DNA from: Candidatus Blautia stercoravium
GTDB lineage: Bacteria; Bacillota; Clostridia; Lachnospirales; Lachnospiraceae
Assembly: GCA_019114495.1 (NCBI GenBank)
Contig: DXFK01000178.1
Span: forward strand, 1-43,543
DNA: 43,543 bases
Direction of reading: 5' to 3'
Position numbers and translations under genes: made by a program. Under the pieces are notes generated by a model. The model made no database searches. It had not been told where the DNA came from and worked only from the letters and a program-made list of their open reading frames with translations. This document shows positions 8,318 to 15,232 of this stretch, piece after piece (the stretch's first letter is position 1; every line of letters starts with the position of its first letter).

Positions 8318-10039
8318 ATGAGCACAAAGATTTCCGGTGAAAAATACGCGGCAATGTACGGCCCTACTACAGGGGATAAAGTAAGACTTGCAGATACCAG
8401 CCTTGTCATTGAAGTGGAAAAAGACTATACCCATTACGGTGACGAAATTAAGTTCGGCGGCGGCAAAACCATCCGTGATGGTATGGGACAGTCTGTAAAA
8501 ACAAAAAGCAGCGACGGAGATTTGGATTTGGTAATTACCAACGCCCTGATTGTAGACTATACAGGGATTGTGAAAGCGGATATCGGAATCAAAGACGGCA
8601 AAATCAAGGGTATTGGTAAGGCTGGAAATCCTGCCGTTATGGACGGTGTGACTCCGGGGATGATTGTAGGCGCGTCCACAGAAGCGCTGGCAGGAGAAGG
8701 GCTGATTGTCACTGCAGGCGGTATTGACACCCATATTCATTACATCTGCCCGCAGCAGATTGACTGTGCGCTGTATTCCGGTGTTACAACTATGATTGGC
8801 GGAGGTACAGGCCCGGCAGACGGAACAAATGCAACTACTTGTACACCGGGCCCCTGGAATATAGAAAAAATGCTTCAGGCCGCAGAGGAGTATTCCATGA
8901 ATCTGGGATTTCTGGGTAAGGGAAACTGCTCTGATGAAGGCCCTCTGGAGGAACAGGTAAAAGCAGGCGCCATGGGACTGAAAATTCACGAGGACTGGGG
9001 CGCAACTCCGGCTGTTATTGACCACTGCTTAAATGTGGCAGACGAATATGACGTACAGGTTGCCATTCACACCGACACCTTAAACGAAGGGGGCTGCGTG
9101 GAGGATACCTTAGATGCCATTGCGGGAAGAACCATTCATACTTACCATACCGAGGGTGCAGGCGGCGGACATGCGCCGGATATTATCCGTGCGGCAGCCA
9201 CAGAAAACGTACTGCCCTCTTCCACAAATCCCACTATGCCGTTTACGGTAAATACTCTGGACGAGCACCTGGACATGTTAATGGTGTGCCATCACCTGGA
9301 TAAGAAAATCCCTGAAGACGTGGCTTTTGCAGATTCCAGAATCCGTCCGGAAACCATTGCGGCAGAAGACGTGCTTCACGACATGGGCGTTTTCAGTATG
9401 ATGAGCTCTGATTCCCAGGCTATGGGACGTATCGGTGAGGTCATCACCAGAACCTGGCAGACCGCCAGCAAGATGAAAGATGAAAGAGGCGCTCTTTTGG
9501 AAGACGCAGCTAATGGAAACGACAACTTCCGTGTAAAGAGATATATTTCCAAATATACCATCAACCCGGCCATTACCCATGGAATTTCCAACTATGTAGG
9601 TTCTGTGGAGGAAGGCAAATTCGCAGACCTGGTACTGTGGAATCCTGCTTTCTTTGGTGTGAAGCCGGAAATGATTTTAAAAGGCGGCATGATTGTAGCT
9701 TCCAAAATGGGTGATGCCAACGCTTCCATTCCGACTACACAGCCTGTTATCTACCGTCCGATGTTCGGGGCGCAGGGAAAGGCAAAATACAAAACAAGCA
9801 TTACCTTTGTGTCCAAGGCGGCAGCAGAAGAGGGCGTAAAGGAAAAATACGGACTGGAAAAAATCGTGCTTCCGGTAGAAAACTGCAGAAATATCGGCAA
9901 AAAGGATATGAAATTCAACAGCGCCACACCGGAAATTACCGTAGACCCGGAAACTTATGAGGTAAAGGCAGACGGTGTTTCCATCACATCCAAGCCGGCT
10001 AAGAGTCTTCCGCTGACACAGCTTTACAGTTTATTCTAA
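8318..10039 (+). CDS. ureC: Urease alpha subunit (catalytic)
   Basis: This is the catalytic urease subunit, holding two nickel ions bridged by a carbamylated lysine. The 573 aa length is normal. All key residues are present with a constant +5 offset from the Klebsiella numbering: His139 and His141 ([12 protein letters not shown]), Lys222 (carbamylated) and His224 ([10 protein letters not shown]), His251 ([10 protein letters not shown]), His277 ([14 protein letters not shown]), flap Cys324-His325 (VCHHLDK) and Asp365 (SSDSQAMGR). The enzyme should be active once matured by UreEFGD, which are encoded downstream. A GGAGG site precedes the ATG. Confidence 0.98.
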
Positions 10040-12400: not shown

Positions 12401-13186
12401 ATGGAAAATCAATTCGGAAGAACTTCTCTTTGCAGCCTGAGGGCAGGGGAAAAAGAGGGGAAAACCGTACTGGAGCAAATGTCGTTTACCGCGCCTTTTA
12501 AGATTATGAGCCCCTTTTACGAAGCAGAAGACTTTATGCATGTCATGGTTTTGTCTGCCTCAGCAGGCATTATGGAAGGGGATACCCAGGAATTTGACAT
12601 AGAGGTAAAGGAAGGCGGCAGACTGAGGTTTTCCGCCCAGGCTTATGAAAAAATCCACAAGATGAAGGAGGGCAGCGCTAGGAGAAATGCCCGTATTCGG
12701 GTAGCGCACGGCGGTATCATGGACTACTGTTCCCAGCCGGTGATTCCCTTTGCACACTCTGCCTTTCGCAGCACTTTGGAGGCGGAGCTTGAAGACGAAA
12801 GTTCCCTTTTTCTATATCAGGAGGTGCTGTCCTGCGGACGGGCAGCCAGAGGAGAAAAATTTGAATACCGTTTTTACCATAATCTGGTCAATGTAAGGCG
12901 GCAGGGGAAACTGATTTACAGGGATAACTGTTTCTTTGACCCCAAGACCATGGACTTGCCAGGACTTGGCATGTATGAAGGCTTTTCCCATATGGGCAGC
13001 TTTTTGGTGTTCGGGAAGGAAGATACGGCAGAGAAAGTGGAGAGAATCCGGGAACTTCTGGAGGTAGACAAAAAAACTCAGGGCGGTGTGACGCGGATTT
13101 CAGATACCGATTTGGCAGTCCGGATTCTGGGAAACGGTGCGCAGCATATAGAAGACTTGTTTGCAAAGATACGGGAGCAAATTTAA
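12401..13186 (+). CDS. ureD: Urease accessory protein UreD
   Basis: UreD (UreH in Helicobacter) is the scaffold that binds apo-urease and recruits UreF and UreG. I choose ATG 12401 (261 aa) because AAGGA at 12388-12392 is 8 bases upstream; ATG 12392 is possible, and the track start at 12362 is deep inside ureG. Family features include VMVLSASAGIMEGDTQEFDIEVKEGGRLRFSAQAYEKIHKM and YCSQPVIPFAHSAF. It is the last gene of the urease set. No terminator follows before the glnA promoter, so transcripts probably run into the glnA leader terminator. Confidence 0.93.
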   Translation: MENQFGRTSLCSLRAGEKEGKTVLEQMSFTAPFKIMSPFYEAEDFMHVMVLSASAGIMEGDTQEFDIEVKEGGRLRFSAQAYEKIHKMKEGSARRNARIRVAHGGIMDYCSQPVIPFAHSAFRSTLEAELEDESSLFLYQEVLSCGRAARGEKFEYRFYHNLVNVRRQGKLIYRDNCFFDPKTMDLPGLGMYEGFSHMGSFLVFGKEDTAEKVERIRELLEVDKKTQGGVTRISDTDLAVRILGNGAQHIEDLFAKIREQI

Positions 13187-13213: not shown

Positions 13214-13242
13214 TTGACATTTAAAATTCACACTGCTATAAT
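13214..13242 (+). promoter_or_regulatory. Consensus sigma-A promoter for glnA
   Basis: TTGACA (13214-13219) and TATAAT (13237-13242) are separated by exactly 17 bases, a perfect match to the housekeeping consensus. Transcription should start near 13249, only about ten bases before a terminator-like hairpin. Such a strong promoter upstream of a terminator fits control by antitermination rather than by initiation. Confidence 0.88.
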
Positions 13243-13258
13243 ACCACCCATAAAGGAC

Positions 13259-13301
13259 AAGGGCGTTCTTATTCAGAGCTTTGAATAAGTGCGCCCTTTT
13301 T
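13259..13301 (+). terminator. Leader terminator/attenuator before glnA
   Basis: AAGGGCG-TT-CTTATTCA pairs with TGAATAAG-TG-CGCCCTT: about 16 pairs with one U:U mismatch around the six-base loop GAGCTT, followed by TTTTT. It lies between the glnA promoter and the glnA ATG at 13320, so it would stop transcription after about 50 nucleotides unless bypassed. It may also end readthrough from the urease operon. The ANTAR protein encoded downstream of glnA is the obvious candidate antiterminator (inference). Confidence 0.82.
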
Positions 13302-13319
13302 GTAAAAGGAGCAAAAATT

Positions 13320-14651
13320 ATGGAGAAGTATACCAGAGAAGATATTCTGCAGATGGCAGAAGAGGAGGATGTGGAATTTATCCGTCTCCAGTTCACCGAT
13401 ATGTTTGGAACCATGAAAAATATTGCGGTTCCTTTCAGTAAGCTGGAGAAGGCCATGGACAACCAGTGCGTCATAGATGCATCTTCCATGGAGGGTTTTT
13501 ATCGAAACGAAGAGGAGGACATGTATTTACATCCGGATTTGAATACCTTCTGTATTCTGCCCTGGCGTCCTCAGCAGGGGAAGGTGGCGAGATTTATCTG
13601 TGATATTTATAAGGCAGACGGCACGCCTTACAGAGAAAGCCCCAGATATATTCTGCAGGAAACCGTAAGGAAGGCAAAGGAAAAAGGATATACGTTTATG
13701 GTAAATCCCGAGTGTGAATTTTTCCTGTTTCACACAGATGACAACGGAATGCCCACCACAGTTACCCATGAGCAGGCGGGCTATATGGATTTGAGCCCTG
13801 TGGATTTGGGCGAAAATGCCAGAAGAGATATTGTGCTAACCCTGGAGGAAATGGGATATGATGTGGAATCCTCCCACCATGAGATTGCGCCCGGACAGCA
13901 GGAAATTGAATTTACGATGTCGGATGTGCAGGAAACAGCAGACAAGCTGATGACCTTTAAAGTAGCGGTGCGAACCATTTCCAAACGCCATGGGCTTCAT
14001 GCTACCTTTATGCCAAAGCCTAAAGAAGAGGTCAATGGTTCCGGTATGCACATCAATATGGTTTTGTATAAAGACGGGAAGAATATTTTTGAGGACGAAA
14101 ATGATATTCTGGGACTCAGCCGTGAGGCCTATGCTTTTATTGCAGGAATTCTGGAGCACATTAAGGGCATGACGGCAATTTTCAATCCGCTGGTGAATTC
14201 TTACAAACGTCTGGTGCCGGGGTTTGAGGCGCCTTCGGAGATTACCTGGTCTTCGGGACAGAGAACCGCCCTTATCAAGGTGCCGTCCAGACGGCAGAGG
14301 GAGAAAGAAATCGAACTGAGGAGCCCGGACCCTTCCGCAAACCCATATCTGGTGTTTGCCCTTTGCCTGGCAGCAGGGATTGATGGGATTGAGCGGAATC
14401 TGGAGATACCGGAGGAACTGACAAAAAGTATTCGCAGCATGTCTGAGGAAGAGAAAAACAGTCAGGGAATTGATTCCCTGCCGGAAAATTTAAGCGACGC
14501 TTTATATGAACTGGAAAAAGATGTGTGGCTGAAAGAAATACTTGGAACCGCCTTTTTTGAGCATTATAAGAAAGCAAAGAAAAAGGAGTGGAAAAGCTAC
14601 ATGAAACAGGTTTCCGATTGGGAGCTGGAGCAGTATTTATACCAGATATAA
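13320..14651 (+). CDS. glnA: Glutamine synthetase type I
   Basis: Glutamine synthetase makes glutamine from glutamate, ammonia and ATP. ATG 13320 (443 aa) follows AAAGGAG at 13305-13311; the track start 13281 is a TTG inside the leader hairpin. GSI hallmarks are SSMEGFYRNEEEDMYLHPDLNTF, the metal-ligand region NPECEFFLF, GSGMHINMVLY, VPGFEAPSEITW and RSPDPSANPYL. The size matches the Gram-positive GSI-alpha class of about 440 aa. The gene sits directly after urease and before an ANTAR regulator, so ammonia from urea is likely captured here. Control by leader attenuation is inferred from the hairpin. Confidence 0.97.
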   Translation: MEKYTREDILQMAEEEDVEFIRLQFTDMFGTMKNIAVPFSKLEKAMDNQCVIDASSMEGFYRNEEEDMYLHPDLNTFCILPWRPQQGKVARFICDIYKADGTPYRESPRYILQETVRKAKEKGYTFMVNPECEFFLFHTDDNGMPTTVTHEQAGYMDLSPVDLGENARRDIVLTLEEMGYDVESSHHEIAPGQQEIEFTMSDVQETADKLMTFKVAVRTISKRHGLHATFMPKPKEEVNGSGMHINMVLYKDGKNIFEDENDILGLSREAYAFIAGILEHIKGMTAIFNPLVNSYKRLVPGFEAPSEITWSSGQRTALIKVPSRRQREKEIELRSPDPSANPYLVFALCLAAGIDGIERNLEIPEELTKSIRSMSEEEKNSQGIDSLPENLSDALYELEKDVWLKEILGTAFFEHYKKAKKKEWKSYMKQVSDWELEQYLYQI

Positions 14652-14680: not shown

Positions 14681-15232
14681 ATGAGCATCATCATTGTGGC
14701 ATTACCAAAAATTGAAGATGCAAAGCGGATACGCAGAATCCTCACCGACCACGGATTTGAAAATATTGTATCCTGCAATACCGCTTCCGCAGCTTTGATT
14801 GAGGCAAACAGACATCAGAGGGGACTGGTTATCAGCAGCTACAAACTGCCGGATATGCATTATTCCCAGCTTGCACAGTGTATCCCGGATTATTTTGAAA
14901 TGCTGCTGATAGGCTCGGCCACTACGGTAAGTGCGGCGGGCAGCGGCATTATGGCCATTACCACGCCTGTGAAGATTTACGACCTGGTCAACACAGTGGA
15001 ACTGATGGCAGGTCAGGCAGAGAAAAGATACAAGAAAGCAAAGAAGAAACCCAAGAAACGGTCAGAGCGGGAAGAAAATTATATTAAAAATGCCAAACTG
15101 CTTTTGATGGAGCGGAATCATCTTTCCGAGGAGGAGGCTTTCCGCTATATTCAGAAATGCAGTATGGACAGCGGTACGAATATGGTGGAAACGGCTCAGA
15201 TGGTACTGACGCTGATTTATGACGAATGTTAA
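14681..15232 (+). CDS. ANTAR-domain antiterminator with degenerate receiver
   Basis: This 183 aa protein has an N-terminal response-regulator-like domain (residues 1 to about 115) and a C-terminal ANTAR RNA-binding domain ([47 protein letters not shown]). ANTAR proteins bind leader RNA and block terminators. The receiver lacks the usual phospho-acceptor Asp: the strand reads [12 protein letters not shown] with Ser in that place, and the N-terminal acidic pair is weak. Signal input by phosphorylation is therefore doubtful. A basic linker ([15 protein letters not shown]) joins the domains. Its place right after glnA, whose leader holds a terminator, suggests it controls glnA. ATG 14681 is chosen; the track start lies within glnA. 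Confidence 0.9.

Follow-up and report, generated by a model that had tools for sequence, protein, structure and literature searches.

A single ANTAR-type hexaloop as the probable antitermination switch of glnA and a nitrogen-assimilation regulon in Lachnospiraceae and other Clostridia

Introduction

How can a gene be expressed when its promoter is followed, within about ten transcribed nucleotides, by an intrinsic terminator? The question is raised by glnA, encoding type I glutamine synthetase (GS), in a 43,543-nucleotide stretch of Candidatus Blautia stercoravium (contig DXFK01000178.1 of assembly GCA_019114495.1; hereafter the window), where the next gene encodes a protein with an ANTAR domain. 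An earlier note on this DNA had proposed a leader attenuator under the control of that protein, possibly acting on a variant or reduced form of the ANTAR target. By published definition the ANTAR-target RNA is a dual hexaloop motif (PMC3369931), and for EutV one hexaloop is enough for binding while two are required for antitermination (PMC8934654; structure of 2022). ANTAR control of clostridial glnA has been proposed before: as cited in PMC6316151, Stutz et al. (2007) described NitR of Clostridium saccharobutylicum as an ANTAR antiterminator of the genes of the GS/GOGAT cycle on nitrogen limitation. The definition of the hexaloop and a Clostridia-wide list of the genes that carry it are the contribution of the present analysis; the reduced, single-hexaloop target appears to be new, no description of a single-hexaloop ANTAR antiterminator having been found in the literature searched.

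The glnA leader in the window

The features of the locus are collected in table 1. The promoter, which the earlier note had called perfect, matches the consensus at every position and also carries an extended -10 TG; from its position, transcription is predicted to start at about 13249. The hairpin of 16 pairs, with its T-run and glnA behind it, was likewise recovered when the pairs were counted (15 Watson-Crick pairs and one G-U, interrupted by one U-U mismatch), as was the ANTAR gene just 3′ of glnA. The leader (13249-13322) has a minimum free energy of -25.1 kcal/mol, compared with -12.2 +/- 2.7 for 200 dinucleotide shuffles of the same segment, none of which folds as well (z -4.8).

Table 1. 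Coordinates and make-up of the features of the glnA-nitR locus in the window.
Feature	Position	Strand	Parts	Basis
Sigma-70-type promoter, TTGACA-17-TATAAT	13214..13242	+	TTGACA 13214-13219; spacer 17 nt; TATAAT 13237-13242	promoter scan; 12/12 consensus
ANTAR-type hexaloop hairpin, proposed antiterminator	13253..13270	+	6 bp; AAGGAC 13253-13258; loop AAGGGC 13259-13264; GUUCUU 13265-13270	A1/G4 loop; covariation; loop consensus
Intrinsic terminator	13259..13301	+	5′ arm 13259-13275; loop GAGCTT 13276-13281; 3′ arm 13282-13298; U-run 13297-13301	folding vs shuffles; covariation in relatives
Ribosome-binding site	13305..13311	+	AAAGGAG	sequence; 3′ of terminator
glnA, glutamine synthetase type I, 443 aa	13320..14651	+	start codon ATG at 13320	Pfam PF00120 and PF03951
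nitR-like gene, divergent receiver-like + ANTAR domain, 183 aa, predicted trans-acting antiterminator	14681..15232	+		Pfam PF03861

A simple terminator scan of the window did not list the leader terminator, an omission for which the internal U-U mismatch is probably responsible, and an Rfam scan of the window and the leader gave no family at gathering score on the leader and nothing relevant to it. As a separate observation, Rfam 5_ureB_sRNA (RF02514) matches the window at 8473-8766 on the reverse strand with 105 bits, antisense to ureC; the match may reflect the conserved urease coding sequence, and an antisense transcript is possible.

Of 40 related loci, about 30 repeat the arrangement of promoter and terminator 5′ of glnA, and it is therefore no product of chance. 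Such a terminator could also be a constitutive, unregulated insulator shielding glnA from the upstream urease operon, of which ureD ends nearby at 13186. However, ureD is followed first by the glnA promoter and then by the terminator, which, if unregulated, would shut off its own gene; furthermore, the element also stands 5′ of many unrelated loci. This reading can practically be set aside.

A hexaloop hairpin that competes with the terminator

Comparison of the leaders of 40 relatives' glnA-ANTAR loci showed that the sequence varies in the apical half of the terminator, its GAGCTT loop included, and that a block of about 14 nucleotides at the 5′ base of the terminator, RRAC-AANGGY-GUYY, is conserved and forms a hairpin of its own. 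The version of this hairpin found in the window exposes the loop AAGGGC, a hexanucleotide with A1 and G4 on a short stem, as is characteristic of ANTAR targets. The earlier note had remarked that GAGCTT does not fit the A1/G4 pattern cleanly; the loop that it had chosen for comparison is the variable apex of the terminator. Its wider proposal, an attenuator acting through a variant or reduced target of the downstream ANTAR protein, is favoured by the comparative evidence described below, with AAGGGC in place of GAGCTT as the ANTAR-type loop.

The loop and the 3′ arm of the hexaloop hairpin are also part of the 5′ arm of the terminator (common segment 13259-13270), so that only one of the two structures can form at a time. 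Folded alone, the hexaloop hairpin is weak, at -3.6 kcal/mol, whereas the terminator segment reaches about -23.6 kcal/mol; the hairpin would, therefore, need to be stabilized in order to prevail.

Further elements were collected with a covariance model that contained the terminator pairs only and left the 5′ arm of the hexaloop unpaired, and pairing in the hexaloop was thus not a criterion of the search; a structure-based scan of the named loci had been too strict and was replaced by this model. From Lachnospiraceae, across which the earlier note had suggested a covariance search as a check, 90 elements (80 distinct) were gathered, and about 27 more were found at class level, mostly in other families of Clostridia. 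About one-third of the 78 named glnA-nitR loci, i.e. those with sufficient upstream sequence, gave no hit of the model 5′ of glnA.

Among the 90 Lachnospiraceae elements, the inner four pairs of the hexaloop stem are formed in 97.8% of cells and double changes number 25, compared with 8.6 +/- 2.2 after shuffling, whereas registers slid along the stem are paired in 36-59% of cells and each has fewer double changes. A repeat on 53 model hits in named genomes, nearly all 5′ of glnA and in genomes that partly overlap the first set, gave 98.5% paired cells and 11 double changes against 2.7. Since the 5′ arm of the hexaloop lies outside the terminator, its covariation can be ascribed to the hexaloop hairpin alone. 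At class level the stem is extended by very different sequences, such as UUAAGAAC/GUUCUUAA, GAUGAGC/GUUCAUC, AUUGAAC/GUUCAAU and UAUGUAC/GUACAUA. The terminator helix covaries too (94.4% of cells paired; 134 double changes versus 41 shuffled).

The loop is conserved in its own right: A1 is found in 82/90, A2 in 90/90, G4 in 90/90 and G5 in 89/90 elements, although the terminator alone would permit other pairs at these positions, while positions 3 and 6 vary, and changes at position 3 are often compensated in the terminator. By these measures, both of the competing structures, the hexaloop hairpin and the terminator, are under selection.

The short inverted repeat GAAC-N6-GTTC, which spans about +5 to +22 counted from the predicted start of transcription, could also serve as a DNA operator for a repressor binding near +1, with the terminator as a plain insulator. 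The one-sided changes in the stem speak against it: 30 cells hold G-U, the wobble of RNA, and 7 are unpaired (mostly A-C), which favours selection on RNA. In addition, the spacer AANGGY lacks symmetry and hardly varies, and the overlap of the dyad with the base of the terminator holds throughout. An operator at this site is, in our judgement, highly improbable.

One hexaloop or two

The earlier note had not found the usual tandem pair of ANTAR hairpins; in the wider comparison a second hexaloop occurs at about chance frequency both upstream and at the apex. Two hairpins joined by a short linker, the arrangement of the ANTAR dual-hairpin motif (Ramesh 2012), were not found. An A1/G4 hexaloop upstream of the conserved one is present in 4/90 elements (4.4 expected) and, at class level, in 3/27 (1.7 expected). 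A count of 37/90 against 12 in shuffled sequences was discarded as misleading, since shuffling breaks the terminator hairpin itself.

The canonical dual-hexaloop target could still be realized if the apex of the terminator acted as the second hexaloop. Indeed, the apex of the window can be drawn as six nucleotides (GAGCTT), and the apical loops of some relatives do carry A1 and G4 (e.g. AGTGGA in L065). Across the collection, however, apical loop sizes range from 3 to 11, and A1/G4 is met in 4 of the 70 apices that can be drawn as hexaloops, where 2.6 are expected; together with the near-chance counts upstream, this makes a canonical pair very unlikely.

The geometry of the leaders points the same way. 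A promoter was called 5′ of 79 of 89 related elements, by a permissive scan that also calls one in 48% of shuffled sequences, and the hexaloop hairpin usually starts 0-9 nt past the predicted start of the transcript. In the 79 promoter-called leaders the four-base-pair stem begins at a median of 9 nt after the -10 element, and about 91% of them have less than 14 nt between predicted start and stem, a stretch too short to hold a further hexaloop hairpin. Given the permissiveness of the scan, this argument leans on strong cases, such as that of the window. On these comparisons, the conserved target is a single hexaloop at the 5′ terminus, without a conserved second one.

To provide an internal positive control, a canonical dual hexaloop was sought in the eut locus of the same genome, and nothing convincing was found. 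That locus (contig C208) contains a 660-aa open reading frame (L174:13594-15576, reverse strand) in which response regulator, ANTAR, PdtaS-GAF, HisKA_2 and HATPase domains are combined; it looks like a fusion of EutV and EutW, which are usually separate proteins.

The ANTAR protein and its association with the element

The three-helix ANTAR domain of the NitR-like protein scores 58.2 bits against a Pfam cut-off of 27.3. Its structural model (pLDDT 90) combines a receiver-like domain with the ANTAR domain, and its nearest fold matches are Rv1626, RNA-bound EutV (6ww6) and AmiR (1qo0). No match to Pfam Response_reg was obtained for the window protein at E 0.001, and the end of strand beta 3, where the phosphoacceptor Asp is expected, carries S, G or A, never Asp, in this protein and all aligned relatives. 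From end to end, no residue distinguishes the window protein from its counterpart in Blautia hansenii MSK.15.26; the leaders of the two differ at several bases.

The contacts between EutV and its RNA, in which G4 is a contacted base, stacked by Y164 (PMC8934654), were mapped onto the NitR clade through alignments. Residues equivalent to K149, E160 and M172 do not vary and the position of Y164 holds F, Y or H, while R142, K143, K147, R168, N173, R175 and R177 are replaced; two of the latter, K143 and K147, are lysines that in EutV contact the hexaloop on the partner chain. By alignment, then, the NitR clade retains the hexaloop-reading core, and most other EutV contacts are re-tuned.

In 77 of the 78 named loci nitR lies directly 3′ of glnA, and in the remaining one it overlaps glnA. 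In Clostridium saccharobutylicum, too, nitR adjoins glnA. In a class-level set of 291 genomes (elements called at E at most 1e-4), an ANTAR domain is present in 49/53 genomes with the element compared with 145/291 in the whole set (odds ratio 18, p 5e-13 by Fisher test, relatedness ignored); the element genomes without a detected ANTAR domain are G411, G531, G563 and G579.

These few genomes, and the many EutV RNA-contact residues that differ in the clade, would suit an alternative in which some other trans-acting factor, an RNA-binding protein or a small ligand, binds the hairpin, the ANTAR gene adjoining glnA for other reasons. The A1/G4 signature of the loop, the near-constant adjacency and the genome-level association all speak against it, as does the lack of any Rfam family match, and we consider it unlikely.

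In the family-level set, a good element lies 5′ of GSIII in a 99%-complete genome in which an ANTAR domain was not detected (L162, G197:C6:19267-19314). The regulator may have been lost there, its gene may have been missed, or the hairpin may have another reader.

Genes downstream of the element

The genes downstream of the 90 elements are glnA (46, a count inflated by the 30 elements that were gathered through glnA), GSIII (19), gltB (5), PII (5, at PII/amtB loci), an operon with a circularly permuted (CP) ATP-grasp gene (5), asnB (2) and other or unassigned genes (8); single cases include a PurF-like amidotransferase, an ABC transporter and aspS. That many nitrogen loci share one RNA signal implies that its regulator acts in trans, and, judged by the genes that it precedes, the element marks a nitrogen-assimilation regulon that comprises GSIII, gltB, asnB and PII/amtB besides glnA.

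In the genome of the window itself a second clear element lies 5′ of asnB. A strict pattern search matched the glnA site only, and a looser one added asnB and a candidate 5′ of a pyrG-like gene; a further loose match, on contig C102, is inside a coding region and was taken as chance. The candidate (L277, G000:C136:20530-20578) is a possible, weaker third element, GAC-AAAGGC-GUC followed by a terminator, and the gene behind it starts with MVKYVFV and is truncated at the contig end.

The CP-ATP-grasp elements (L109, L143, L148, L150 and L153) have the hexaloop-terminator 5′ of the ATP-grasp gene, which in L109 is followed by Alpha-E and transglutaminase-like genes; their position suggests a nitrogen-related role for this poorly understood cluster. 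Purine-rich apical stretches (GGGG, GGAG or GAGG; e.g. L049, L054, L067) also seem to be common in glnA leaders, at 48% compared with 32% of other elements.

A proposed mechanism and its relation to known systems

The glnA leader is, with good probability, a single-hexaloop ANTAR antitermination switch of the NitR type, belonging to a nitrogen regulon of Clostridia; binding by NitR, antitermination and induction under nitrogen limitation are what we infer from the comparisons above. RNA polymerase would start near 13249 and make the hairpin at 13253-13270 first. An active NitR-type protein on the AAGGGC hexaloop would keep this hairpin shut and deny 13259-13270 to the terminator, allowing read-through into glnA-nitR; with NitR inactive, the stronger terminator (13259-13298) would fold and transcription would stop at about 13301.

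The proposed switch resembles the control of eutP by EutV in Enterococcus faecalis (PMC3369931, PMC8934654) in the REC-ANTAR fold, in the A1/G4 hexaloop on a short stem that excludes an intrinsic terminator and in having nitrogen genes as targets. It differs in that the glnA leader has one hexaloop where the EutV target has two, lacks the upstream recruitment hairpin and places its hairpin at the extreme 5′ end of the transcript, and in that the NitR receiver has no phosphoacceptor. With NitR of C. saccharobutylicum, compared through the citing review (PMC6316151), it shares an ANTAR protein reported to antiterminate GS/GOGAT genes.

A receiver without the phosphoacceptor Asp makes a protein or ligand signal likelier than phosphorylation. 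There are precedents: AmiR, the ANTAR antiterminator of the Pseudomonas amidase operon and one of the fold matches of the NitR-like model, is governed by contact with a protein, AmiC, not by phosphorylation. Protein-protein contact rather than phosphorylation also governs the ANTAR antiterminator of the NasS-NasT pair, as outlined in PMC3795266. Unlike in these two systems, no gene for an AmiC- or NasS-like sensor stands beside nitR, the constant neighbour of which is glnA. This constancy, with the non-phosphorylatable receiver, makes GS a candidate sensor, and GS itself may possibly be the source of the NitR signal, although this is speculation; glutamine-bound GS would then prevent the antiterminator protein from reaching the RNA, in the way that AmiC restrains AmiR. 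The full scheme, i.e. a Clostridia-wide regulon in which one 5′-terminal hexaloop suffices as antiterminator and is read by an ANTAR protein that cannot be phosphorylated and has the adjacent GS as its sensor, is put forward tentatively and is rather less likely to hold than to fail.

The family offers natural single-hexaloop targets on which the requirement for two hexaloops can be tested directly, and it predicts re-tuned residues in an ANTAR clade. For the control of nitrogen metabolism in gut Lachnospiraceae and other Clostridia, it provides a concrete RNA definition and a list of genes.
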